DNA of 64,000 nucleotides, taken from Sunxiuqinia elliptica. GTDB taxonomy: Bacteria > Bacteroidota > Bacteroidia > Bacteroidales > Prolixibacteraceae. Below, one piece after another: positions 26,575 through 37,628 of this stretch. Each line of letters opens with the position of its first letter. Positions within the stretch are counted from its first letter, which is position 1. The stretch is taken from contig NZ_FONW01000002.1 in the NCBI RefSeq assembly GCF_900113005.1, positions 310,001 to 374,000 of the forward strand, in the 5' to 3' direction. Under the pieces are notes generated by a model. The model was given only the letters and a program-made list of their open reading frames with translations. It did not search any database and was not told where the DNA came from. A program made the position numbers and the translations under genes.

Positions 26575-26800
26575 CGGAGCCAGTTCTGTTTGGAGTTGAG
26601 AGTCGTTGGTTCTGGTTTGAGTTGAAGGTTCTTTTTATGATCGTAATCAAGATGATTCATCGATTTTGCTGAGAATTTTAGGGCTGTGTTGCTTGTTATG
26701 CGGTACTTGTTGTAAAAAAATTAAGGCTTCTCAGTGAACTAATAGTCTTGAATTTTGTCATAATAAGAGATTTTCCATTTCAAATTTGTTTAACGACAAC

Positions 26801-28366
26801 ATGGGTAAAGCTCAACAAAATAACTCAAGAGTCAAGTCCGATAGAAATTCTTCGGACAAGGAGACTTATCAACAAATTGTTGATAACTTCTATGAGCGCT
26901 TGAATAGCACGCTTAATCATGGTCCTGAAAAAGCCATTCAAAAGCACCGGGAGCGGGGGAAACTTCTTGCTCGTGAGCGTATTGATCTGTTGATTGATAA
27001 AAATACGCCATTTCTGGAGTTGTCAACTTTTGCTGCCTATGGCCAATATGATGATGCTTTCCCGTCTGCTGGAATTGTAACCGGAATTGGAGTTGTGCAG
27101 GGGCGTGAATGTATGTTGGTTGCGAATGATGCGACCGTAAAAGGAGGTACTTACATTCGGGAGACCATCAAAAAGCATGTTCGAGCACAGGAAATTGCGC
27201 TTAAAAATCATTTGCCTTGCATTTACCTGGTTGACTCGGGTGGTATTTTTCTGCCTGAGCAAGCCAATGTTTTTCCCGACCGTTTTGATTTTGGACGGGT
27301 ATTTTATAATCAGGCACGTTTGTCGGCCGAAGAAATCCCACAGTTAGCAGTGGTTATGGGGTCTTGCACGGCGGGTGGCGCTTATGTTCCAGCCATGTGC
27401 GATGAAACCATCATTGTAAAAAATCAAGGAACCATTTTTATTGGTGGTCCGCCTTTGGTGAAAGCAGCGACAGGCGAAGAAGTATCTGCTGAAGAGCTCG
27501 GAGGAGGAGAGGTGCACACTTCCATTTCGGGAGTTGCGGACCATCTGGCAGATGATGATGTTGATGCCATTCAAATTTGTCGTCGTGTGGTGAAGAGTTT
27601 TCCAATTCCGCAGAAAAAGGATCTTCCAATTGAACGGGTTAAAGAACCTGCCTGCAAGGGGGAGGAGATTTATAAGTATTTGTCTTCGGATTTAAAAAAG
27701 CCGATTGCTATTCGTTCGATTATTGAATGTCTGGTGGATGGTGGTGACTTTCAGGAGTTCAAGGAAAACTATGGAAAAACCTTGATAACCGGGTTTGCCA
27801 ATTTGAAGGGAATGCCTGTTGGAATATTAGGAAATCAGAGTTTTCTGACTGCTGAGAGTGCTCGCAAAGGAGCCCATTTCATTCAGTTATGTAATCAAAG
27901 GCAAATCCCCTTGCTGTTTTTGCAAAATATAACCGGCTTTATTGTCGGGAAAAAATACGAGCATGAAGGAATTGCCCGTGATGGGGCTAAATTGATTCAT
28001 GCGGTTGCCAACGCTGTGGTGCCTAAAATTACAGTGGTTATTGGCGGATCATTTGGTGCAGGAAACTACGCGATGGCAGGGCGAGCGTACGAGCCCGACT
28101 TTTTGTTTATGTGGCCTCATTCGCGTATTGCAGTGATGGGAGGAGAACAAGCGGCTGGAGTGTTGCAGACAATTGGTCAAAATGGAATAGGAACGCGCTT
28201 AATCGAACAGTTTGAAGCGGAAAGCTCTGCTTATTATAGCTCTTCGCGTTTGTGGGATGACGGTATTCTGGATCCAGCACAAACTCGTGATATTTTGGCT
28301 TTGGCCTTTACGGTAACGATGAATCAGCCGGAGCAAAAGCCTCATTACGGGGTGTTTAGAATGTAA
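26801..28366 (+). CDS. Methylcrotonoyl-CoA carboxylase, carboxyltransferase (beta) subunit
   Basis: A 521-residue carboxyltransferase that transfers CO2 from carboxybiotin to 3-methylcrotonyl-CoA in leucine degradation. The ATG at 26801 is preferred over an in-frame TTG at 26786. The MCC-specific features are visible: DSGGIFLPEQANVFPDRFDF, FGRVFYNQARLSAEEIP, VVMGSCTAGGAYVPAMCDE and GGPPLVKAATGEEVSAEELGG; the second half has GSFGAGNYAMAGRAYEPDF. These phrases distinguish it from propionyl-CoA carboxylase beta subunits. It is the first gene of a nine-gene operon and precedes the hydratase by 14 bp. Confidence 0.9.
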   Translation: MGKAQQNNSRVKSDRNSSDKETYQQIVDNFYERLNSTLNHGPEKAIQKHRERGKLLARERIDLLIDKNTPFLELSTFAAYGQYDDAFPSAGIVTGIGVVQGRECMLVANDATVKGGTYIRETIKKHVRAQEIALKNHLPCIYLVDSGGIFLPEQANVFPDRFDFGRVFYNQARLSAEEIPQLAVVMGSCTAGGAYVPAMCDETIIVKNQGTIFIGGPPLVKAATGEEVSAEELGGGEVHTSISGVADHLADDDVDAIQICRRVVKSFPIPQKKDLPIERVKEPACKGEEIYKYLSSDLKKPIAIRSIIECLVDGGDFQEFKENYGKTLITGFANLKGMPVGILGNQSFLTAESARKGAHFIQLCNQRQIPLLFLQNITGFIVGKKYEHEGIARDGAKLIHAVANAVVPKITVVIGGSFGAGNYAMAGRAYEPDFLFMWPHSRIAVMGGEQAAGVLQTIGQNGIGTRLIEQFEAESSAYYSSSRLWDDGILDPAQTRDILALAFTVTMNQPEQKPHYGVFRM

Positions 28367-28380
28367 AAAAAAAGAAAGAC

Positions 28381-29187
28381 ATGGAAAACTGGAAAAATAT
28401 AAAATTAGAACTGGGGGACAAGCGGGCTAACTTAATTTTATCCCGTCCCCAGGTGCATAATGCAATAAATCCGGAGTTGATTGAAGAAATGCACGAAGCA
28501 TTGAAGATCATCGCTGAAAGAGACGAAATTCAGTTTCTTGTCCTTTCTGGTGAAGGAAAATCCTTCTGTGCCGGAGCAGACATCGCTTGGTTTGCAGGAG
28601 CTGTGGATAAGTCAAAAGCGGATAACTGGCAAGAGTATTTAAGGATGGCCGAATTGCTGAAGGCACTTCATGAACTGCCCAAAGTGACCATTGCTGCTGC
28701 TCACCGGAATGTTCTGGGAGGAGCAAATGGATTGGTTGCTGCTTGCGACTTTGTTGTCGCTGAGCGGTCTACCGCGTTCGCCTTTGGTGAAGTCAAATTG
28801 GGAATTGTGCCGGCAACAATAACTCCTTTTGTTGCATGTCGTGTTTCTGTTCAAAATATGAGAAAGCTAATGTTTTCGGGCGATCGCTTTTGGGCAACTG
28901 AAGCCCAGTTGGTTGGCTTGGTTGATTTTCTGGCTGAAGACGGGAAAATGGAGCAGGTTGTTGATCAACTAATTGATGGCTTGAAAGATTCTTCTCCCAA
29001 TGCTTTACGGGCTTGTAAACAGTTGTTGCTGAAAGTCGGTTCCGGTGAATTAACTGTGGAAAGTAGTGAGCATACAGCAGCGGTATTGGCTGAACTGATT
29101 GAATCAGACGAAGGTCAGGAAGGATTGCGAGCCTTTTTGGAAAAGAGAAAACCAGATTGGCAAAAACTAAATGTTGTTGAAAATTAA
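28381..29187 (+). CDS. Enoyl-CoA hydratase family, probable methylglutaconyl-CoA hydratase
   Basis: A 268-residue crotonase-fold enzyme. The first oxyanion-hole segment is SFCAGADIAWFAGA and the second is AAAHRNVLGGANGLVAACDFVVAERSTAFAFGEVKLGIVPA, with the Glu of FGEVKLGI in the position of a catalytic acid. The GAD(I/L)xW(F/M) form is typical of methylglutaconyl-CoA hydratases (LiuC type), which add water to 3-methylglutaconyl-CoA to give HMG-CoA. Its place between the two methylcrotonyl-CoA carboxylase subunit genes supports this. The stop codon overlaps the next start by 1 nt. Confidence 0.82.
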   Translation: MENWKNIKLELGDKRANLILSRPQVHNAINPELIEEMHEALKIIAERDEIQFLVLSGEGKSFCAGADIAWFAGAVDKSKADNWQEYLRMAELLKALHELPKVTIAAAHRNVLGGANGLVAACDFVVAERSTAFAFGEVKLGIVPATITPFVACRVSVQNMRKLMFSGDRFWATEAQLVGLVDFLAEDGKMEQVVDQLIDGLKDSSPNALRACKQLLLKVGSGELTVESSEHTAAVLAELIESDEGQEGLRAFLEKRKPDWQKLNVVEN

Positions 29188-31166
29188 TGAAGCATTTTCA
29201 AAAAATATTGATTGCCAACCGAGGTGAAATTGCTGTTCGGATTTTAAAAACAGCTCAGAAATTTGGTGTGCAAGTGCTGGCGGTTTATGCCGCTGAAGAT
29301 GCCGCTTCTAAGCATGTTGAGTTAGCTGATCAGGCAATTCTTCTGGAAGGAGATGAACTGCAGGAGACCTATCTCAATCAGGATAAATTGATTTCGATAG
29401 CGCTTGATCATGGTGCACAGGCAATTCATCCCGGTTATGGGTTTTTATCTGAGAATGCAGGTTTTGCTGAAAAGGTGGAGCAAGCTGGCTTGGCTTTTAT
29501 AGGTGCTACCCCGGCGCAAATCCGCTTGATGGGAGAAAAACGACAAGCCATTGCTTTTGTCGAGCGATTGGGAGTTCCCATTATCCCAGGAAAACGAGCT
29601 TCGGTTGATGAATTGATTCAGTTGGCTCCAGAGCTGGATTTACCAATTTTGGTAAAAGCATCTGGCGGGGGTGGTGGTAAAGGCATGGAGGTTGTCCATG
29701 ATCTTGCTCAGTTACCAAAAGCATTAAAACAAGCGCAGCGTCTGGCTCTTCAATATTTTGGGAATGATGAATTATTAATAGAGAAATACCTGTCTGTAGC
29801 TCGCCACATCGAAGTGCAAGTGTTGGGTGACGGAAGTGGTAAGGCGGTGCATTTATTTGAACGTGAATGCAGCATTCAACGGCGCTATCAAAAGTTGATT
29901 GAGGAAGCCCCGGCTTCATCAATTTCAGAAAATACCAAGAAAAAATTATACGAAGCAGCCTTGACAATTGTCCGGGCTATAGAATATCGGGGAGCAGGAA
30001 CGATTGAGTTTCTCGTTGATGAACAGGAGAATTTCTATTTCCTGGAAATGAACACCCGGCTCCAGGTAGAACATCCGGTAACCGAATTGATTACTGGAAT
30101 CGACTTGGTTGAATGGCAATTGCGTATTGCTTTGGGCGAACAACTGAGTTTGCAGCAACATCAATTGACTGCGAATGGACATGCCATTGAGTTAAGAGTT
30201 TGTGCTGAAGATCCGACGAATCAGTTTATGCCCACCTCTGGGCATATTCATGACTTGATTGAACCAGAGTCTGCCCGTTGGGATAGCTTTTTAACTACTG
30301 GCTTTCATTTGTCTTCGAACTATGACTCGTTGTTGGGCAAGCTGATCGTGCATGGACAGTCCAGAGCTGAGGTTCTTGAGCAAATGCGCCAATCGGTTGA
30401 CTCGCTTTTTGTTGGCGGTGTGAAAACGAATCAGCAGTTTTTGAAGATGGTGCTGGCTCAGCCAGCCTTTAATCAAAATCAAATCAGTACCCGTTGGCTG
30501 GAGGAAAGTTTACCAGCCTTGCTGAGGGAAGAAGAAATGGAAGGTGAAAAAAGGCCTGTTGCTGAACTCTTGGTTGGCTATTTGTTACATCATTTTTATC
30601 GTCCGAATAGTACTGATAGAGCAACGAGTTGGACGGAAATGGGCTATTGGCGTTTTCAACAGAAGTTTCAAGTAAAGCTCGAAGAAGAATGGCATGCGAT
30701 TGAAGTTTCTCCAAAAGCAAATTCATGGCAGATGAGTTGGGGAAATCAGCTTTTCCAAGTTGTTCCTAAGCAGTGGAAGTCTTCGTCAATTCAATTTTCT
30801 CTAAATGATAAAGATATTGTTATCTTTATTTCCGAAGAAGCTGGGCTAAGCCGGATACAATATTTGAGTCAGTTGTATTCATTGCGGAGCAATCACGTGG
30901 CCAATCAAGTGCAGTTACAGCGTAAGGCAGTTGTTGTAGGAGAAACGAAGAGTGATCGGGTTGTGGCTGATTTGTTTGGGAAAGTGGTTGACGTGCTGGT
31001 GAAACCCGGAGATGTTTTGCAAAAAGGACAGACTTTATTAGTGATCGAATCAATGAAGTCTGAATTTACAATACAAAGCCCAGCAAATGCTGTGGTGAAA
31101 ACTATTCATGTATCCAAGGGACACTTGGTGCAGGATAAAGAATTATTGGTGGATTTAGAATCGTAA
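29187..31166 (+). CDS. Methylcrotonoyl-CoA carboxylase, biotin-carrying (alpha) subunit
   Basis: A 659-residue protein with biotin carboxylase, BT and biotinyl domains in order. The carboxylase part begins ILIANRGEIAVRILKTA and has the glycine loop KASGGGGGKGMEVVHD, the substrate loop IQRRYQKLIEEAP and NTRLQVEHPVTELITG. The C-terminal biotinyl domain has VIESMKSEF; the Lys in MKS is the biotin site, although the common form is MKM. Length fits methylcrotonyl-CoA or propionyl-CoA carboxylase alpha subunits; the partner beta subunit in the same operon argues for the former. It uses ATP and bicarbonate. Confidence 0.9.
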   Translation: MKHFQKILIANRGEIAVRILKTAQKFGVQVLAVYAAEDAASKHVELADQAILLEGDELQETYLNQDKLISIALDHGAQAIHPGYGFLSENAGFAEKVEQAGLAFIGATPAQIRLMGEKRQAIAFVERLGVPIIPGKRASVDELIQLAPELDLPILVKASGGGGGKGMEVVHDLAQLPKALKQAQRLALQYFGNDELLIEKYLSVARHIEVQVLGDGSGKAVHLFERECSIQRRYQKLIEEAPASSISENTKKKLYEAALTIVRAIEYRGAGTIEFLVDEQENFYFLEMNTRLQVEHPVTELITGIDLVEWQLRIALGEQLSLQQHQLTANGHAIELRVCAEDPTNQFMPTSGHIHDLIEPESARWDSFLTTGFHLSSNYDSLLGKLIVHGQSRAEVLEQMRQSVDSLFVGGVKTNQQFLKMVLAQPAFNQNQISTRWLEESLPALLREEEMEGEKRPVAELLVGYLLHHFYRPNSTDRATSWTEMGYWRFQQKFQVKLEEEWHAIEVSPKANSWQMSWGNQLFQVVPKQWKSSSIQFSLNDKDIVIFISEEAGLSRIQYLSQLYSLRSNHVANQVQLQRKAVVVGETKSDRVVADLFGKVVDVLVKPGDVLQKGQTLLVIESMKSEFTIQSPANAVVKTIHVSKGHLVQDKELLVDLES

Positions 31167-31182
31167 AAAAATAAAAACCTAC

Positions 31183-32340
31183 ATGAACGCATTTTTAAAC
31201 GAAACGCATCATGCTCTGCGGAAAAAAGTAAGAGGCTTTGCAGAGAAATATGTAAAACCCGTAATTGGCGAGTTTGAAGCTAAGGAACAGTTCCCGATGG
31301 ACTTGATCCGGTCATTGAAAAGCCTGAATGTTTTTGGGATGCATGCCCCTGAACGTTTTGGAGGGCAGGGTAGCGATTACCTTTCCTACATTATTGCCGT
31401 GGAAGAATTGGCTCGGGTAGATAGCTCTGTGGCGGCAACCTTAGCGGCACATAATTCCTTGGGAGTTGGTCCCATTATGGAGTTTGGAACTGAAGAGCAA
31501 AAAGCAAAATATTTACCGTCGCTGTGTACGGCTGAGAATCTTTGGGCTTTCGGATTGACTGAAGAGAATGCAGGGTCTGATGCTCAGGGCGTGGAAACAG
31601 TGGCTAAGGAGCAAGCCAATGGTTGGTTGGTAAATGGACATAAAAAATACATTACCAATGGTGCTTCAGATATGTCGTCAGGTATTAGCTTTGTAGCGCA
31701 AACAGGCATACGGGAAGATGGCCGTAAAGAATTTACCGCTTTTCTTGTTAGCAAAGGAGCTCCGGGCTATACCCGCGAGTTTATGAAAAATAAGCTACTT
31801 TGGCGTGCTGCTGATAATGGCATGGTGTACTTTAATGATGTACACATTCCTGCTGAGGATCAGTTGGGTGAGCGTGGTCAAGGAATCAAAATTATGCTGA
31901 AAACCATTGATTCCGGACGTTTGTCTATTGCAGCTATGGGATTGGGATTGGCTCAGGGAGCTTTTGAGATGGCGGTTAGCTTTGCAAAAAAACGGAAACA
32001 ATTTGGGAAAGCCTTAGCTAATTTTCAGGTAATTTCTTTTAAATTGGCCGATATGGCAATGAAGATAGAAAATGCCCGGAATACCCTTTACAACGCTTGT
32101 TGGTTGAAAGATAACGGACATGCATTTGGGACGCAGGCAGCCATGGCAAAACTGTATTGCTCGCAAGTAGCCAGTGATGTGACTGGTGAAGCTTTACAGA
32201 TTTTTGGTGGAGCCGGTTTATTCCGTAATGACGAATACCCAATCGAACGTTTTTTCCGTGATCAGCGCTTACTCTCCATTGGAGAGGGAACATCAGAAGT
32301 GCTGCGAATGGTAATTTCACGTTCGGTATTAAAGGAATAA
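31183..32340 (+). CDS. Acyl-CoA dehydrogenase (isovaleryl-CoA dehydrogenase by context)
   Basis: A 385-residue FAD-dependent acyl-CoA dehydrogenase. Visible motifs: FGLTEENAGSDAQGVET in the middle domain, WLVNGHKKYITNGASDMS, RKQFGKALANFQ and a C-terminal QIFGGAGLFRNDEYPIERFFRDQR followed by SIGEGTSEVLR. The Glu in GEGTSE is in the position used by short- and medium-chain enzymes; true isovaleryl-CoA dehydrogenases normally use a Glu on helix G and have a small residue here. Helix G reads TIDSGRLSIAAMGLG without that Glu. So context says isovaleryl-CoA, while the residues look like a short-chain or 2-methyl-branched type. Seventeen bp after the carboxylase gene, same operon. Confidence 0.85.
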   Translation: MNAFLNETHHALRKKVRGFAEKYVKPVIGEFEAKEQFPMDLIRSLKSLNVFGMHAPERFGGQGSDYLSYIIAVEELARVDSSVAATLAAHNSLGVGPIMEFGTEEQKAKYLPSLCTAENLWAFGLTEENAGSDAQGVETVAKEQANGWLVNGHKKYITNGASDMSSGISFVAQTGIREDGRKEFTAFLVSKGAPGYTREFMKNKLLWRAADNGMVYFNDVHIPAEDQLGERGQGIKIMLKTIDSGRLSIAAMGLGLAQGAFEMAVSFAKKRKQFGKALANFQVISFKLADMAMKIENARNTLYNACWLKDNGHAFGTQAAMAKLYCSQVASDVTGEALQIFGGAGLFRNDEYPIERFFRDQRLLSIGEGTSEVLRMVISRSVLKE

Positions 32341-32343
32341 TAA

Positions 32344-33357
32344 ATGACACAAGATCGCAAACTTGACCACATTCAACTTGCTTTTGAATCACAAACTGGA
32401 TTGATGGAGCATGACCAACGGTTTATGTACGAACCATTGTTGGCTGCTCATCCTGTAGATGGTGAACAGGCTTTTCTGTTTTTAGGGAAAATGATTCGGT
32501 CACCCTTCTGGGTTTCCAGTATGACCGGAGGTACAGGAGTTGCCCGTAAAATCAATGAAAACATTGCACAAGCTTGCCGTGAGTTTGGATTTGGAATGGG
32601 ATTGGGATCATGTCGCAAAATATTGTTTGATAAAACGTATTGGGCAGATTTCGATATGCGCGAGATTATTGGCCCGGATCAGCCATTTTGGGCAAATTTG
32701 GGTATTGCGCAAGTCGAGTCGTTGTTGAAAGATAAAAATGAGCAGGCAATTATTGATTTGGTTGGTGAGCTTCGAGCTGATGGTTTAATTGTTCATGTTA
32801 ATCCACTTCAAGAATGGTTTCAGCCAGAGGGAGATCGGATAGAGCGACCTCCAATTGAGACCATTGAATTGTTGATGAGCCGCATGCATTTACCAATCAT
32901 TGTTAAAGAAGTTGGCCAAGGCATGGGCGAGGCTAGCTTAAAGCGCTTGTTGAGATTGCCACTGGCGGCCATTGAGTTTGCTGCCTATGGGGGAACCAAC
33001 TTTTCAAACCTGGAGTTGATGCGTGAGGATCCTGCGATGCAGGAGATGTATCAACCGTTTGCTTTTGTTGGGCAAACAGCAGCTCAGATGGTGAAGAGTG
33101 TCAATCGTTTGTTGCAGGAAATTGGCGAACCACAGTGTCGTCAACTGATCATTTCGGGTGGCGTGAAAAACTACCTGGATGGTTACTACCTAACTTCATT
33201 GAGTCAGCTGCCAGCCGTGTATGGAATGGCTTCGGCTGTGCTAAAACATGCAACCAACGATTATCAAGAGCTCAAGACTTATATCGAAAATCAATTGAAG
33301 GCCCTGCGTTTGGCGCAACAATATTTGACGTTAAACCCGGAATATGACGGAGCATAA
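32344..33357 (+). CDS. fni: Type 2 isopentenyl-diphosphate delta-isomerase
   Basis: A 337-residue FMN- and NADPH-dependent isomerase that interconverts IPP and DMAPP. The family markers are all present: RKLDHI at the N-terminus, SSMTGGT (FMN binding), FGMGLGSCR, HVNPLQEW, VKEVGQGM and AAYGGTNFSNLE. Length is normal. The start ATG is 3 bp after the acyl-CoA dehydrogenase stop, and the end overlaps the HMG-CoA reductase start by 14 bp, so expression is tightly coupled to both leucine degradation and mevalonate genes. Confidence 0.93.
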   Translation: MTQDRKLDHIQLAFESQTGLMEHDQRFMYEPLLAAHPVDGEQAFLFLGKMIRSPFWVSSMTGGTGVARKINENIAQACREFGFGMGLGSCRKILFDKTYWADFDMREIIGPDQPFWANLGIAQVESLLKDKNEQAIIDLVGELRADGLIVHVNPLQEWFQPEGDRIERPPIETIELLMSRMHLPIIVKEVGQGMGEASLKRLLRLPLAAIEFAAYGGTNFSNLELMREDPAMQEMYQPFAFVGQTAAQMVKSVNRLLQEIGEPQCRQLIISGGVKNYLDGYYLTSLSQLPAVYGMASAVLKHATNDYQELKTYIENQLKALRLAQQYLTLNPEYDGA

Positions 33358-34657
33358 AATCATAAATGGCTTTTCGAAATTTGATCGAACACAAAAAATA
33401 CAATGGCTGATTGAGCAATTCCATTTGGATGCCGAGACTCAAGCCTTTCTGGATAGTTTTCAATTAACCAACCAACAGTGGCAGGCGGTCATTGCCGATT
33501 TGAGTGAAAACCAACTATCTAATTTTCACTTGCCCTTTTCTGTTGCTCCCAACTTTTTAGTTGACGGGCAAACCCAAGTATTTCCGCTGGTTACCGAAGA
33601 GAGCTCAGTGGTCGCTGCTTTGGCGAAGGCTGCTGGCTTTTGGGCGAAAAGAGGTGGTTTTAAATCGGAAATAATAGGTACGCAGAAAAAAGGACAGCTG
33701 CACTTTAGTTGGAATGGACAGCCTCAGAAATTACGAAAGGCTTTCCCTGAGATTAAGCAAAAGCTGCTGAAAGAGGCTGAACCGCTGACACAGAATATGG
33801 AAAAGCGGGGAGGGGGAATTCGAGCGATTGAGTTGAAAGAATTGCCTGAAATTTTGCCGAACTACTATCAGTTGGATGTTGCCTTTGAAACCTGTGATGC
33901 GATGGGAGCCAATTTCATCAACTCATGTTTGGAGCAATTTGGACGAAGTATGAAAGACTGGGCAGATACTGCGCCAGAGCTTTTGCCGGAAGAACAGGGA
34001 CTGGAAGTGATCATGGCAATTTTGTCAAACTACGTTCCCGATAGTCGGGTGCGTGTTTGGGTAGAATGCCCGGTTGAGGAGTTGGCTGATGAACGGGAAG
34101 AAGCTTATGCTTTTGCTGAGAAATTTGTTCGTGCAGTGCGTATTGCCCGGGAGGATGTGTCGCGGGCTGTAACTCACAACAAAGGGATTTTTAACGGAAT
34201 TGACGCCTTGGCGATGGCTACAGGAAATGATTTTCGAGCCATTGAGGCTGGAGCTCATGCGTATGCTGCGCAGCAAGGCCAGTACCGTGGACTGACAGAA
34301 GCATGGATTGATCAGGGGAAATTCTGGTTTCAGTTGGAAATTCCACTGGCAGTTGGCGTTGTTGGAGGAGTAACCAGTTTACATCCGTTGGCAAAGCTCT
34401 CCATGCAAATATTGGGAAATCCTTCAGCTAAAGAATTGATGGCCTATTTGGCTGTGGCCGGATTGGCGTCGAACTGGTCTGCGGTTCGGGCGTTGGTAAC
34501 AACCGGCATTCAGCAGGGACATATGAAAATGCATTTGAGTAATATTTTAAATAGTTTTCAGGTTTCTGATGAACAAAAAGAGTCGGCAAGACTTTACTTT
34601 CAAGACCGGGAAGTTTCATTTGCCGAGGTGAAGAAATTTTTAGAAAAACATGTCTGA
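33344..34657 (+). CDS. mvaA: Hydroxymethylglutaryl-CoA reductase (class II-like)
   Basis: A 437-residue HMG-CoA reductase. Catalytic residues expected for the family can be placed: Glu in SENQLSNFHLPFSVAPN, Lys in THNKGIFNGIDALAMATGNDFRA with the Asp of GND, and His in TTGIQQGHMKMH. CDAMGANFINS is the HMG-CoA-binding signature. There is no membrane domain, as in bacterial class II enzymes. In this operon it would reduce HMG-CoA to mevalonate, though class II enzymes can also run as mevalonate oxidisers. It overlaps fni by 14 bp and the GHMP kinase by 8 bp. Confidence 0.92.
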   Translation: MTEHKIINGFSKFDRTQKIQWLIEQFHLDAETQAFLDSFQLTNQQWQAVIADLSENQLSNFHLPFSVAPNFLVDGQTQVFPLVTEESSVVAALAKAAGFWAKRGGFKSEIIGTQKKGQLHFSWNGQPQKLRKAFPEIKQKLLKEAEPLTQNMEKRGGGIRAIELKELPEILPNYYQLDVAFETCDAMGANFINSCLEQFGRSMKDWADTAPELLPEEQGLEVIMAILSNYVPDSRVRVWVECPVEELADEREEAYAFAEKFVRAVRIAREDVSRAVTHNKGIFNGIDALAMATGNDFRAIEAGAHAYAAQQGQYRGLTEAWIDQGKFWFQLEIPLAVGVVGGVTSLHPLAKLSMQILGNPSAKELMAYLAVAGLASNWSAVRALVTTGIQQGHMKMHLSNILNSFQVSDEQKESARLYFQDREVSFAEVKKFLEKHV

Positions 34658-35573
34658 CGTAAAACAAACATATGATGCCCACGGGAAATTATTGCTCACT
34701 GCCGAGTACTTTGTGCTGCAAGGAGCAAAAGCTATTGCGTTGCCATTGCAATATGGTCAGCGAATGGATGTGTCGGAGGGCAGACAGGCTGATGTGGTAA
34801 GCTGGAAAGCATTTATGCAGGAAGGACTTTGGTTTTCCTGCGATTTTCAGTTGCCCTATTTAAAGATTATCCATAGTTCAGATGCTGAAAAAGCGGTTAT
34901 TCTGCAAGATGCGCTGAAAGCTATTCTGAAAATGAACCCGCAGTTCAAATTGAATGGGGGATTGGATATTCATACCAAAATTGATTTTCATAACCAATGG
35001 GGATTGGGAAGTAGCAGTACGCTGATTGCCAACTTAGCCACTTGGGCAGGAGTTGATCCTTTTCAACTGAATGAACAGATTTTCAATGGCTCAGGCTTTG
35101 ATATTGCGTGTGCTTCGGCTGATGGGCCAATCTTTTACGAAAAAGATAAGAAGCCGCAACGAATTGAGCTCGATTATCCGTTTTTGGATAACCTCTACTT
35201 TATTTACTCCGGGTCGAAGAAAAGTACCCGAAATGAAGTGCGTCGCTTTTTGCGTGATGGCGCTGTAACGGAAGCACAGCTGAGTGAAGTGAACGGGATT
35301 TCAGAAGAAATTGCAAACACTCGTGATTTGGCTGATTTTCAGCGATTGATTGTGCAGCACGAGGCATTAGTTAGTGGATTGCTGAATAGCCCAACGGTAA
35401 AGTCAAGCTATTTTAGTGATTTTAATGGCGAGGTGAAATCGCTTGGCGCATGGGGTGGAGATTTTTATCTGGTTGCAACTCCAATGGATGATCGTTGTGT
35501 GTTGAAGTATTTCAAAGAGAAAGGATTGCGGGTCGTATTTCCGTGGAAAGAATTGGTGTTGAATAAGCGTTGA
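34650..35573 (+). CDS. GYDIA-family GHMP kinase, candidate phosphomevalonate kinase
   Basis: A 307-residue GHMP kinase. Family features: GKLLLTAEYFVLQGAKAIALP near the N-terminus, the ATP-binding WGLGSSSTLIA and the segment SGFDIACASADGP, a variant of the GYDIA motif that names this Bacteroidota group. It lies between HMG-CoA reductase and diphosphomevalonate decarboxylase, and a separate mevalonate kinase is encoded two genes downstream, so phosphomevalonate kinase is the most likely role by elimination. That activity is not proven from sequence. Confidence 0.85.
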   Translation: MSDVKQTYDAHGKLLLTAEYFVLQGAKAIALPLQYGQRMDVSEGRQADVVSWKAFMQEGLWFSCDFQLPYLKIIHSSDAEKAVILQDALKAILKMNPQFKLNGGLDIHTKIDFHNQWGLGSSSTLIANLATWAGVDPFQLNEQIFNGSGFDIACASADGPIFYEKDKKPQRIELDYPFLDNLYFIYSGSKKSTRNEVRRFLRDGAVTEAQLSEVNGISEEIANTRDLADFQRLIVQHEALVSGLLNSPTVKSSYFSDFNGEVKSLGAWGGDFYLVATPMDDRCVLKYFKEKGLRVVFPWKELVLNKR

Positions 35574-35582
35574 GAAAAAAGT

Positions 35583-36635
35583 ATGGTGAAAGGGAAAGAA
35601 TATCGGGCGGAATGGGAATGTCCGTCAAATATAGCATTGATAAAATATTGGGGTAAAAAGCCGGCACAGTTGCCGTTGAATGCCTCTTTAAGTTTTAGTC
35701 TGAAAAAGGCCAAGACGAAAACGCGCGTTTCGATAACGCCAGCTTCGAGAAGGAAGGTCTCTTTTATGTTTGAAGGCCAAGCTTCAGCATTTACAGAGCG
35801 TATCGAAAACTATCTGGCGAACATGTCTTTGGAGCATGATTGGTTAAATGATTTCTCATTCAAAATTGAAAGTTGGAATACGTTTCCACATTCGGCAGGA
35901 ATTGCTTCTTCGGCTTCTGCCTTTGGTGCTTTGGCGCTATGCCTAGTCGATTTAAAACAGCAGGTAAATAATCGGCAGTTTACTCAGGAGCAGTTTTTTC
36001 AGAAAGCTTCGCGTTGGGCGCGTCTGGGAAGTGGGAGCGCTTGCCGGTCTGTGTTTCCTGCTTTTGCTGTTTGGGGGCACTTGAACCAAATACCCGGATC
36101 AACAGATTGCCATGCTATTCCTGTAAAAGGGCGTTTTCATCCGGATTACTATAGCTTGCGGGATGCGGTTTTACTGGTTGATTCTAACAAAAAGCAAGTG
36201 TCCAGTTCGCAAGGGCATGAGTTGATGAATACCCACACGTTTAAGGATGCCCGCTTGGCACAGGTTAACAGTCACCTGTTCGAGTTACTTACGGTCATGG
36301 AAAAGGGGGAGCATGCTCGTTTTTTTGAGTTGTTGGAGAAGGAGGCACTTAGCCTTCATGCTTTGATGATGACTTCTGATCCGTCGTTTATTTTGCTTCA
36401 TCCCAATAGTCTGAATATTATCCAAAGAATTCGGGATTTTAGGAAACAAAGCGGGCTTCATTTTGGTTTTACAATTGATGCAGGCCCCAATATTCATCTG
36501 ATTTATTTTGAGAAGGATAAGGAGGTGATTCATCAGTTTGTTGAGCATGAGTTGTTGAGTTTTACCGAGCAAGGACAATGGTTGGATGATGGTATTGGTA
36601 ATGGCCCAATTCAGTTGACGGATGAAGGAGTTTAA
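35583..36635 (+). CDS. mvaD: Diphosphomevalonate decarboxylase
   Basis: A 350-residue GHMP-fold enzyme that makes IPP from diphosphomevalonate with ATP. Motifs: CPSNIALIKYWGKKP at the N-terminus, LNASLSFSL, the phosphate loop SAGIASSASAFGALAL and SGSACRSVFPAFAVWG (the Ser-Arg region of decarboxylases). The catalytic Asp lies in the C-terminal part, probably in TIDAGPNIH. Nine bp separate it from the preceding kinase, and it overlaps mevalonate kinase by 14 bp. Confidence 0.94.
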   Translation: MVKGKEYRAEWECPSNIALIKYWGKKPAQLPLNASLSFSLKKAKTKTRVSITPASRRKVSFMFEGQASAFTERIENYLANMSLEHDWLNDFSFKIESWNTFPHSAGIASSASAFGALALCLVDLKQQVNNRQFTQEQFFQKASRWARLGSGSACRSVFPAFAVWGHLNQIPGSTDCHAIPVKGRFHPDYYSLRDAVLLVDSNKKQVSSSQGHELMNTHTFKDARLAQVNSHLFELLTVMEKGEHARFFELLEKEALSLHALMMTSDPSFILLHPNSLNIIQRIRDFRKQSGLHFGFTIDAGPNIHLIYFEKDKEVIHQFVEHELLSFTEQGQWLDDGIGNGPIQLTDEGV

Positions 36636-37533
36636 TGCCAAATTATTGCTGTTTGGAGAATATGGATTGATGTATGGCGCAAAGGCACTGGCTATTCCAT
36701 TCTCCCGTTTTAAGGGAAAGCTTGTTTTTAGCGAAAACTTAAGCGATCAAACTATTGGCGAAAGTCGGCTGGAACTTGAGCGGTTTGTCTCATTCTTTGA
36801 GCATGAGCGACTGAATGAGCAGATGAACTTTCCTTTGAACCTTAGCCAGATCAAAAAAGATATGGCTGCAGGATTGTTTCTAAAATCAGATATTCCATTG
36901 CAATATGGAGTGGGGAGTTCAGGAATGCTTTGTGCGGCGGTTTACCATCGCTATAGCGGCTATCAGGATAGTCTGGGAGCACAGCGAGCTAAGAAAAACC
37001 TGTTGGGCATTCTGAAGGAAGACTTTTCCGTGATGGAAGCCTACTTTCATGGGAAAAGCTCGGGCTTTGATCCCCTGGTTTCTTTTGTTAACCGTCCGGT
37101 ACTACTTGCAGGAAAAGAGATTCATCTTCCGGCTCAGTCTCTAAAAACTCCAGGATTCAATGTTTTTTTAATCGATACAAAAATAAAGAGCTCAACTGCT
37201 CCATTGGTACGTTTGTTTATGCAGAAAATGGAGCAAGCTGATTTTTCAACTGCGTTTAAGTCCCGATTTTTACCCACCAATGACTTGGCTATTCAAGCGT
37301 TTTTAACAGGCGACAAGGATGAACTATTTCATCAGGTTCGAGCGCTTAGTTCCTTTCAATTGAATTACCTACAAGAGATGATTCCTGAAGCATTTCAAAA
37401 AGTGTGGCATCATTTACGTGACCAAGAAATTATTGTAAAACTTCTGGGCTCCGGAGGTGGTGGTTTTTTGCTCGCCTTTGTTCCTGAAGGAAGAATGATG
37501 CCGGCTGAATTAGAATGTATTCAAGTGTTTTAG
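36622..37533 (+). CDS. mvk: Mevalonate kinase-like GHMP kinase
   Basis: A 303-residue GHMP kinase, last in the nine-gene operon. Features: AKLLLFGEYGLMYGAKALAIP, the phosphate loop YGVGSSGMLCAA and HGKSSGFDPLVSFVNRP (the second GHMP motif, with the Asp expected near the catalytic site), then LLGSGGGGFLLAF at the C-terminus. The GEYG...YG start and SSGFDPLVS are typical of mevalonate kinases of this phylum. It phosphorylates mevalonate in the cytoplasm. A convergent gene follows. Confidence 0.88.
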   Translation: MKEFNAKLLLFGEYGLMYGAKALAIPFSRFKGKLVFSENLSDQTIGESRLELERFVSFFEHERLNEQMNFPLNLSQIKKDMAAGLFLKSDIPLQYGVGSSGMLCAAVYHRYSGYQDSLGAQRAKKNLLGILKEDFSVMEAYFHGKSSGFDPLVSFVNRPVLLAGKEIHLPAQSLKTPGFNVFLIDTKIKSSTAPLVRLFMQKMEQADFSTAFKSRFLPTNDLAIQAFLTGDKDELFHQVRALSSFQLNYLQEMIPEAFQKVWHHLRDQEIIVKLLGSGGGGFLLAFVPEGRMMPAELECIQVF

Positions 37534-37593: not shown

Positions 37594-37628
37594 AAAAAAG
37601 CCTTAAGGTATCTTCACCTTAAGGCTTT
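37594..37628 (-). terminator. Terminator between mvk and ricT
   Basis: A perfect 13-bp stem (37597-37609 with 37616-37628), loop 6 nt. On the minus strand it ends in a run of T (A residues at 37594-37599), so it mainly serves ricT, but it is placed to stop both convergent transcripts. Confidence 0.9.

Follow-up and report, generated by a model that had tools for sequence, protein, structure and literature searches.

A nine-gene operon of Sunxiuqinia elliptica that probably joins leucine degradation to the mevalonate pathway

Textbooks describe two isoprenoid routes, both fed from central carbon. Unlike the operon described here, the myxobacterial system retains genes for HMG-CoA synthase, and it can proceed in the direction of isovaleryl-CoA. 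In an excerpt of PMC7321100, dimethylacrylic acid introduced label into a myxobacterial sesquiterpene, whereas labelling from acetate was not significant, and myxobacterial leucine degradation and the alternative isovaleryl-CoA pathway have intermediates in common with the route proposed below. Halobacterium salinarum and Leishmania mexicana possess a leucine shunt, according to an excerpt of PMC8791446 (Yamauchi 2010 as cited there); such a shunt is also known in myxobacteria. An excerpt of PMC5993337 names an HMG-CoA synthase gene in Trypanosoma brucei.

The window, i.e., the whole stretch of 64,000 nucleotides of S. elliptica DNA analysed here, contains a block of nine genes at positions 26801-37533 (Table 1). 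The initial annotation had described nine same-strand genes with gaps of at most 16 bp and several overlaps, and this was borne out by the reading frames: all nine lie on the plus strand, each is open over its full coordinates, and the successive intergenic gaps are 14, -1, 16, 3, -14, -8, 9, and -14 bp. The order is MCC beta, hydratase, MCC alpha, acyl-CoA dehydrogenase, IDI2, HMG-CoA reductase (HMGR), GHMP kinase, diphosphomevalonate decarboxylase, and GHMP kinase. The first gene has two candidate starts, the ATG at 26801, which is preceded by a 226-bp gap, and a TTG 5′ of it at 26786. The hairpin behind the block was scored on the minus strand, which is the orientation of the convergent gene and not of the operon, and is the first of 15 terminator-like sites in the region, where shuffling expects 11.8. 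As the identical order occurs in 21 other loci, the block is not a chance association. With a probability of roughly 0.8 we consider that the nine genes form one operon, in which a leucine module is joined to a mevalonate module, and that this operon makes IPP from isovaleryl-CoA, which would stem from leucine or from imported isovalerate.

Table 1. Features of the nine-gene block and its downstream border
Feature	Position	Strand	Profile match or description
3-Methylcrotonyl-CoA carboxylase (MCC) carboxyltransferase (beta) subunit	26801..28366	+	PF01039 (Carboxyl_trans) 478 bits
Crotonase-fold hydratase, putative 3-methylglutaconyl-CoA hydratase	28381..29187	+	PF00378 (ECH_1)
MCC biotin carboxylase and biotin carrier (alpha) subunit	29187..31166	+	Biotin_carb_N, CPSase_L_D2, Biotin_carb_C, Biotin_lipoyl
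Acyl-CoA dehydrogenase, putative isovaleryl-CoA oxidation	31183..32340	+	Acyl-CoA_dh domains
Type 2 isopentenyl-diphosphate isomerase (IDI2)	32344..33357	+	TIGR02151 190.7 bits, below cut-off 281
Class II HMG-CoA reductase (HMGR)	33344..34657	+	PF00368 (HMG-CoA_red) 281 bits; TIGR00532 270, above cut-off 260
GYDIA-family GHMP kinase, probable (phospho)mevalonate kinase	34650..35573	+	NF040656 312 bits, above cut-off 225
Diphosphomevalonate decarboxylase	35583..36635	+	TIGR01240 181 bits, above cut-off 171; MVD-like_N, MDD_C
Mevalonate-kinase-like GHMP kinase	36622..37533	+	TIGR00549 74 bits, below cut-off 163
Terminator-like hairpin	37597..37628	.	14-pair stem, between operon and convergent next gene

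Pfam and NCBIfam profiles and solved chains agree with the enzymes originally named for the first module, namely both MCC subunits, a methylglutaconyl-CoA hydratase-like enzyme, and an acyl-CoA dehydrogenase. The solved chain nearest to MCC beta is human MCC beta (643 bits), the remaining MCC betas scoring 618-545 bits; 4q0g AccD1 and 9tps, labelled acetyl-/propionyl-CoA carboxylase by their depositors, also reach 629 and 623 bits, and the remaining propionyl-CoA carboxylase chains at most 279 bits. The substrate of MCC alpha is presumed from the adjoining beta subunit. The top NCBIfam models of the hydratase, both below cut-off, are PRK07468 (211 bits) and the gamma-carboxygeranoyl-CoA hydratase model PRK05674 (206 bits); its solved relatives include 3i47 (152 bits) and the isohexenylglutaconyl-CoA hydratase 4zu2 (129 bits), and Glu137 and the Gly at position 117 are each kept in 48/48 relatives. 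The dehydrogenase is closest to acyl-CoA/butyryl-CoA dehydrogenases (318-293 bits), isovaleryl-CoA dehydrogenases (IVD) scoring only 241-224 bits, and it carries Gly245 and Glu368, each kept in 46/46 relatives. The IVD type and the SCAD/MCAD type have their catalytic Glu at different positions. Judged by sequence and active-site position, the enzyme is of the short-chain/butyryl type and not a member of the IVD family, and its substrate is therefore assigned from gene context. All enzymes from isovaleryl-CoA to HMG-CoA (dehydrogenase, MCC, and hydratase) are present by family, with putative substrates for the dehydrogenase and the hydratase.

The second module contains the canonical lower set of HMGR, two kinases, and diphosphomevalonate decarboxylase. 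These assignments and that of the type 2 IPP isomerase, all made beforehand from the sequence, gained support from Pfam and NCBIfam matches, TIGR02151 and TIGR00549 lying below their cut-offs. The closest solved chain of HMGR is 7n7s (444 bits). Glu85 is present in 137/138 relatives (one gap) and Lys280, Asp296, and His393 in 138/138; these four are active-site residues, and by their conservation the active site is intact. The GYDIA kinase matches the mevalonate kinases 1kkh and 1vis by profile, and its model (pLDDT 90) has mevalonate kinases as best folds, with the Streptococcus pneumoniae phosphomevalonate kinase among those listed. The kinase encoded by the last gene matches the Staphylococcus aureus mevalonate kinase 2x7i, and the best folds of its model (pLDDT 87) are again mevalonate kinases. 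A division into one mevalonate and one phosphomevalonate kinase was tried and dropped, as profiles and folds placed both proteins nearest mevalonate kinases.

In the proposed route, the dehydrogenase would oxidize isovaleryl-CoA to 3-methylcrotonyl-CoA, MCC would add CO2 to give 3-methylglutaconyl-CoA, and the hydratase would convert this to HMG-CoA. HMGR would then form mevalonate, the two GHMP kinases and the decarboxylase would lead to IPP, and the type 2 isomerase would supply DMAPP. The CO2 lost at the decarboxylase is the one added by MCC, so the five carbons of isovalerate would enter IPP unbroken. HMG-CoA synthase and lyase would both be dispensable, and HMG-CoA would flow to mevalonate only.

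Conservation of the gene order, which had been suggested as a check, was confirmed in relatives: the exact nine-gene order was found in 21/139 HMGR loci scanned, belonging to the own family (f1), to a further six families in the order sample, and to three named records, for which the scan covered the 80 top-scoring matches out of at least 588. The cultured Tangfeifania diversioriginum is among the carriers. All five other genomes of the genus contain HMGR; four have the full block, and the fifth has all but the first gene, where a contig end cuts it. Within the family, MCC beta occurs in 55/60 genomes with HMGR vs 1/40 without, and in 47/55 it lies at most 12 kb from HMGR. Among 148 genomes of the order, an MCC-type carboxyltransferase was found in 39/40 genomes with the lower mevalonate pathway vs 28/108 others, or 37/40 vs 24/108 if only full-strength MCC beta (at least 840 bits) is counted; these genomes are related, and Fisher values for the co-occurrence overstate their independence. 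The 40 pathway holders are 49 HMGR genomes minus nine, of which six have only another, longer HMGR frame (G009, G013, G031, G112, G116, and G147), two only HMGR fragments (G068 and G106), and one, G118, an HMGR cut at a contig end and no decarboxylase found by the search. The MCC is weaker in three of the 28 others (G094 and G142, 609-653 bits; G092, a 343-aa frame), and that of G107 is a 281-aa frame with 474 bits. MCC was not found in G036, which has the lower pathway, and is doubtful in G047 and G055, where partner genes were not found nearby. The leucine module is joined in only 12 of the 40 holders and not in the other 28, as far as the contigs examined reach. The modules are joined wholly or partly in 13 genomes from 11 families of the order sample. 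In the MCC tree, with labels corrected for two short duplicate loci (L103 and L104), two loci cut by contig ends (L072 and L114), and a split one (L113), joined and lone MCC are separated by two changes, and a one-split tree was not rejected (p-AU 0.16). The HMGR tree has four changes. Both trees reveal that the states cluster but do not tell which way they changed.

The missing HMG-CoA synthase and lyase, noticed initially within the window, were sought in whole genomes, and by PF08540, TIGR00748, and NF004283 their absence extends to the genome of S. elliptica, which in these searches yielded neither the synthase of a canonical mevalonate pathway nor the lyase of complete leucine degradation. 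PF08540 had no match in this genome (0/1), in the 148 genomes of the order, or in 58 further family genomes and five named Bacteroidales, and the archaeal-type TIGR00748 gave none in S. elliptica at E<=1e-10. The three NF004283 matches in this genome reach at best 56.6 bits against a cut-off of 246, and the best of them is citramalate-synthase-like (678 bits). Lyase-like proteins were found in 0/13 genomes with wholly or partly joined modules vs 40/54 other MCC genomes; HMG-CoA lyase running in reverse was accordingly rejected as the HMG-CoA source for joined operons and is possible for G047 and G055. Mevalonate might instead be fed from acetyl-CoA by a diverged HMG-CoA synthase encoded elsewhere, with the leucine module merely co-regulated and adding some or no HMG-CoA. 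PF08540 matched Haloferax in one control, and in another it matched only 4/16 HMGR-bearing Flavobacteriia/Saprospiria (G222, L175, and L130 were left out of this second control, which covered the family, named Bacteroidales, and these classes). A profile missing 12/16 was rejected as sole proof of absence, which favours this alternative, as does the lower pathway without MCC in G036. The case for absence therefore leans on TIGR00748, which gives two Bacteroidota HMG-CoA synthases (L208 and L209) 72-84 bits when two stretches are added together, whereas in the 40 pathway holders it found nothing of HMG-CoA synthase length, only frames of 250-390 aa with at most 67 bits that appear KAS-III-like by length and score. 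The absence rests on profiles; PF08540 could miss a diverged synthase, and other types could exist. An independent synthase would also leave the presence of MCC in 39/40 holders unexplained, and we regard an acetyl-CoA-fed pathway as unlikely.

Bacteroidota produce iso-fatty acids, which would suit a use of the genes in the opposite direction, from HMG-CoA to isovaleryl-CoA. MCC, however, is driven towards carboxylation by ATP, the kinases and the decarboxylase are one-way, and the myxobacterial reverse route requires HMG-CoA synthase and a decarboxylase instead of MCC. The myxobacterial alternative isovaleryl-CoA pathway does branch off mevalonate metabolism, as stated in PMC7321100. With no synthase found in S. 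elliptica by either profile, such reverse use seems very improbable indeed. Disposal of leucine or isovalerate as the main role, with mevalonate or isoprenoids as a by-product, is only slightly less improbable: S. elliptica keeps DXR and IspG and may therefore not require the operon for its IPP, but kinases, decarboxylase, and isomerase would be costly for disposal, and three genomes in which neither DXR nor IspG was found (G041, G091, and G143) keep the pathway.

Our preferred reading thus remains a leucine- or isovalerate-fed isoprenoid route, as the initial annotation had suggested; the conserved order and the failure to find HMG-CoA synthase speak for it, while the dehydrogenase is not of the IVD type and the route is probably not the sole one in this organism. 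As the genome carries DXR and IspG, the operon is probably a second isoprenoid route beside the MEP pathway, which would likewise not stand alone there. G041 (94% complete), G091, and G143 (91% complete) retain HMGR, decarboxylase, and MCC. Assembly gaps as the explanation of DXR-less genomes were examined by means of IspG: G063 and G094, which lack HMGR and DXR, keep IspG, so their missing DXR is probably an assembly gap, and the other three are without both. Three of the five DXR-less genomes hold the mevalonate pathway, an excess that is not significant (P=0.12, kinship ignored). In these three the leucine-fed pathway would be the only route, and leucine or isovalerate looks like the sole source of IPP, the MEP pathway being judged by DXR and IspG. 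Chances seem about even that this constitutes a third natural isoprenoid supply, in which G041, G143, and G091, the last together with Tb.RUG.175, a relative named after the rumen, would build all isoprenoids from leucine or isovalerate with the C5 skeleton left intact, MCC adding a CO2 that the decarboxylase later removes. Quinones and the lipid carrier of cell-wall synthesis would then require leucine or isovalerate in such cells, and the window operon would be the dedicated, self-contained form. If so, the isoprenoid supply of these bacteria would hinge on branched-chain amino or fatty acids. Rumen and gut bacteria have isovalerate needs, on which this would bear, and engineers would gain a cassette of nine genes that converts isovaleryl-CoA to IPP without losing any carbon of the C5 skeleton.

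Compared with known systems, the block shares the order MCC beta-hydratase-MCC alpha-dehydrogenase with liu-type leucine clusters, which comprise MCC, hydratase, dehydrogenase, HMG-CoA lyase, and CoA transferase. The same order occurs in other Bacteroidales (L084, L086, and L087) together with HMG-CoA-lyase-like genes, and in L084 also with CoA transferases, whereas the window block has neither lyase nor CoA transferase and continues with HMGR and the lower mevalonate pathway instead. Bacterial mevalonate operons with HMG-CoA synthase carry HMGR, two GHMP kinases, decarboxylase, and IDI2; the window block is without the synthase and has the leucine module in front. An operon leading from leucine to mevalonate was not found in the literature searched. 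The shunt of the Halobacterium/Leishmania type is accompanied by HMG-CoA synthase, judging from the T. brucei gene and the Haloferax match, whereas neither synthase nor lyase was found in S. elliptica, and the source excerpts describe no single operon for it, whereas the two modules of the window form one. The excerpts present the leucine shunt as one input, found in a small number of organisms; in S. elliptica and its relatives with joined modules it would be a fixed operon replacing HMG-CoA synthase.

The initial annotation had described nine same-strand genes joining leucine degradation to the mevalonate pathway, and this observation was right: nine open reading frames spaced by −14 to +16 bp lie on the plus strand at 26801-37533, and a scripted scan of gene order found exactly this order in 21 of 139 loci with HMG-CoA reductase (HMGR). 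Upstream of the block, a 226-bp gap is followed by two radical-SAM genes; downstream lies a convergent PSP1-domain gene.

Genes of the block at 26801-37533
Gene	Product	Strand	Basis
1	3-methylcrotonyl-CoA carboxylase (MCC) beta	+	family match
2	crotonase-type hydratase	+	family match
3	MCC alpha (biotin carboxylase + carrier)	+	family match
4	acyl-CoA dehydrogenase	+	family match
5	type 2 IPP isomerase (IDI2)	+	family match
6	class II HMGR	+	family match
7	GYDIA GHMP kinase	+	family match
8	diphosphomevalonate decarboxylase (MDD)	+	family match
9	mevalonate-kinase-like (MVK) GHMP kinase	+	family match

Compared with solved structures, MCC beta groups with methylcrotonyl-CoA carboxylases (human enzyme, 643 bits) and is also near 4q0g AccD1 (629 bits) and 9tps (623 bits), named acetyl-/propionyl-CoA carboxylase by their depositors; the remaining propionyl-CoA carboxylases reach at most 279 bits. 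The structures closest to the hydratase are 3i47, 4kpk and the isohexenylglutaconyl-CoA hydratase 4zu2, and that closest to HMGR is 7n7s (444 bits). The HMGR active site is kept, with Lys280, Asp296 and His393 each present in 138 of 138 relatives and Glu85 in 137 (one gap). The dehydrogenase is closest to acyl-CoA/butyryl-CoA enzymes (318 bits), isovaleryl-CoA dehydrogenases scoring lower (241-224 bits), and its active site is of the short-chain type in 46/46 relatives, which by sequence makes it the weakest link of the proposed route. As lone leucine clusters carry a dehydrogenase of the same type, this enzyme is probably the isovaleryl-CoA dehydrogenase of the Bacteroidales.

The 139 loci were drawn from a sample of the order, the window's own family and a scan of named genomes (best 80 of at least 588); Flavobacteriia and Saprospiria are among them, as are some short or truncated stretches, and a genome may figure twice, once unnamed and once as a named record. 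The exact order was found in seven loci from six families besides the window's (L035, L036, L045, L052, L057, L068, L069), in eleven loci of its own family (f1), and in L122, L124 and L194 from the named-genome scan. L122 comes from a cultured member of the Prolixibacteraceae, Tangfeifania diversioriginum DSM 27063. A Sunxiuqinia MAG (L123) has the nine-gene order with MCC alpha broken into two frames. Among the variants, L039 has eight genes, L100 is without IDI2, L064 is without MCC alpha, and L060 has only MCC alpha and the dehydrogenase in front; in L051, L072, L092, L125 and L187 the block is truncated. Two Ancylomarina loci (L130, L132) represent a half-joined form, in which IDI2-HMGR-GYDIA-MDD-MVK is preceded by the dehydrogenase alone, MCC and hydratase being absent. 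All five other sampled genomes of the genus have HMGR, four with the full block and one (G204) with all genes except the first, lost at a contig end. Joined and lone genes part with two changes in the MCC beta tree, in which a single split was not rejected (p-AU 0.16), and four changes are needed in the HMGR tree. The joined arrangement is therefore mostly inherited and is probably an old feature; neither tree separates gain from loss.

The order sample comprised 148 genomes from 109 family codes. HMGR was present in 49, of which 40 with a class II HMGR in full frame and the decarboxylase were counted as pathway holders. MCC beta, scored with a profile built from joined loci (A1), fell into a high class (67 genomes, all at 608-1016 bits except for one 281-aa fragment at 474 bits) and a low class (at most 358 bits). 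The high class occurred in 39/40 holders, all except G036, versus 28/108 other genomes; with the line set at 840 bits the counts were 37/40 versus 24/108. In G047 and G055 MCC beta reached just 630-653 bits, with no hydratase, MCC alpha or dehydrogenase adjoining. The leucine module (genes 1 to 4) was joined to HMGR in 12 holders and, within contig reach, not in the other 28. In the own family (100 genomes), MCC beta accompanied HMGR in 55 of 60 genomes and occurred in one of the 40 that lack HMGR; the HMGR genomes in which it was missing were G187 (another HMGR type), G204 (contig end), G210, G222 and G236. MCC beta and HMGR lay 5.5-8.0 kb apart in 47 of the 55 and on separate contigs in eight. 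The Fisher values (2e-16 for the order, 4e-21 for the family) are not true probabilities because the genomes are related. A second, different HMGR (L003-L007, L010; 392-792-aa frames, 328-418 bits) sits alongside the class II enzyme in G028, G034, G050, G113, G131 and G143.

HMG-CoA synthase (HMGS) was searched for with two models. PF08540 matched in none of the 148 order genomes, 58 further family genomes and five named Bacteroidales, and it failed its in-phylum control, matching in only 4 of 16 HMGR-bearing named Flavobacteriia/Saprospiria (45-66 bits). Two of these matched proteins were HMGS-like, with 253-266 bits on TIGR01835 (cut-off 360) and 72-84 bits over two stretches on TIGR00748. 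TIGR00748, scanned in the 148 genomes with matches listed to about 41 bits, gave nothing in the 40 holders beyond KAS-III-like frames (250-390 aa, at most 67 bits) and no match in the own genome; the scanned loci held no HMGS-like frame either. Given the negative results of both models and the failed control, the absence of HMGS from holders is well supported by profile but not proven, as an HMGS unlike these types would escape both. True archaeal-type HMGS was found in G010 (L203 1498-2547) and G042 (L202), at 511 and 528 bits; in these two genomes MCC was found and HMGR was not. For the 12 of 16 Flavobacteriia/Saprospiria (G251-G266) silent by PF08540, either HMGS has diverged further or mevalonate is likewise leucine-fed.

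No HMG-CoA lyase scored above the NF004283 cut-off in the 148 genomes. Lyase-like proteins (best scores 110-204 bits) occurred in 40 of them; in L084, two such genes flank a CoA transferase pair beside MCC, hydratase and dehydrogenase. They were present in 0/13 genomes with the joined arrangement versus 40/54 other MCC genomes, and the known acetoacetate branch is therefore missing where the module joins HMGR. In three lyase-free leucine clusters (L107 4333-6150, L111 13377-15179, L112 6311-8179), MCC alpha and the dehydrogenase are separated by a gene of 600-622 aa; that of L107 is AtuA, with 481 bits on PF07287 (acyclic terpene utilisation). In two further leucine clusters (L083 4687-6861, L085 5505-7691) a 724-728-aa frame occupies the MCC alpha slot, in L085 with PYC_OADA, HMGL-like and biotin-carrier domains and no biotin carboxylase.

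The MEP pathway marker DXR was present in 143/148 order genomes, including the own genome. Three of the five genomes without it are holders (G041, G091, G143), and among 12 genomes searched for IspG these three alone lacked it; IspG was present in the own genome, the DXR-less G063 and G094, and six more. G063 and G094 are 99% complete, and their missing DXR probably reflects assembly gaps, or else a different DXR type. Completeness was 94% for G041, 91% for G143 and 99% for G091 (2.4 Mb, ~20 contigs). G091 had no lyase, DXR or IspG, and no HMGS by PF08540 or TIGR00748. Its genes stand in pairs (HMGR-GYDIA, decarboxylase-kinase, MCC beta-hydratase, MCC alpha-dehydrogenase), and PTA_PTB and Acetate_kinase (phosphotransbutyrylase/kinase-family) genes adjoining the dehydrogenase and MCC alpha (L210 13509-15507) possibly provide a route from isovalerate to isovaleryl-CoA. 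The MAG Bacteroidales bacterium Tb.RUG.175 (L188), whose RUG presumably denotes rumen, is syntenic with G091 at 78-89% DNA identity.

From gene content, order, conservation and profile-based absences we infer the following reactions. Isovaleryl-CoA, perhaps supplied by a transaminase and keto-acid oxidoreductase or by isovalerate uptake, would be converted to IPP with its carbon skeleton intact: by known enzymology, the carboxylate that MCC adds forms C1 of mevalonate and is taken off by the decarboxylase, and the thioester carbon is the one HMGR reduces. The leucine-fed reading of the initial annotation is well supported at the sequence level by conserved order, MCC co-occurrence and the profile absence of HMGS and lyase, and such a pathway appears to be spread across the order, the window holding its fused form.

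Neither such an operon nor a leucine route in Bacteroidales was reported in the open-access titles and abstracts that the literature searches listed, and neither 'leucine' nor 'Bacteroid' occurs in the main text of PMC13001223, a review from 2026 on how bacteria make isoprenoids. PMC6155224 cites Yamauchi 2010, and PMC9201399 contributes nothing further. Elsewhere, a leucine shunt is named for Halobacterium salinarum and Leishmania mexicana in section 3.1.2 of PMC8791446, and PMC5993337 shows it in T. brucei alongside an HMG-CoA synthase gene. According to PMC7321100, a myxobacterial sesquiterpene took up label from dimethylacrylic acid and not significantly from acetate.
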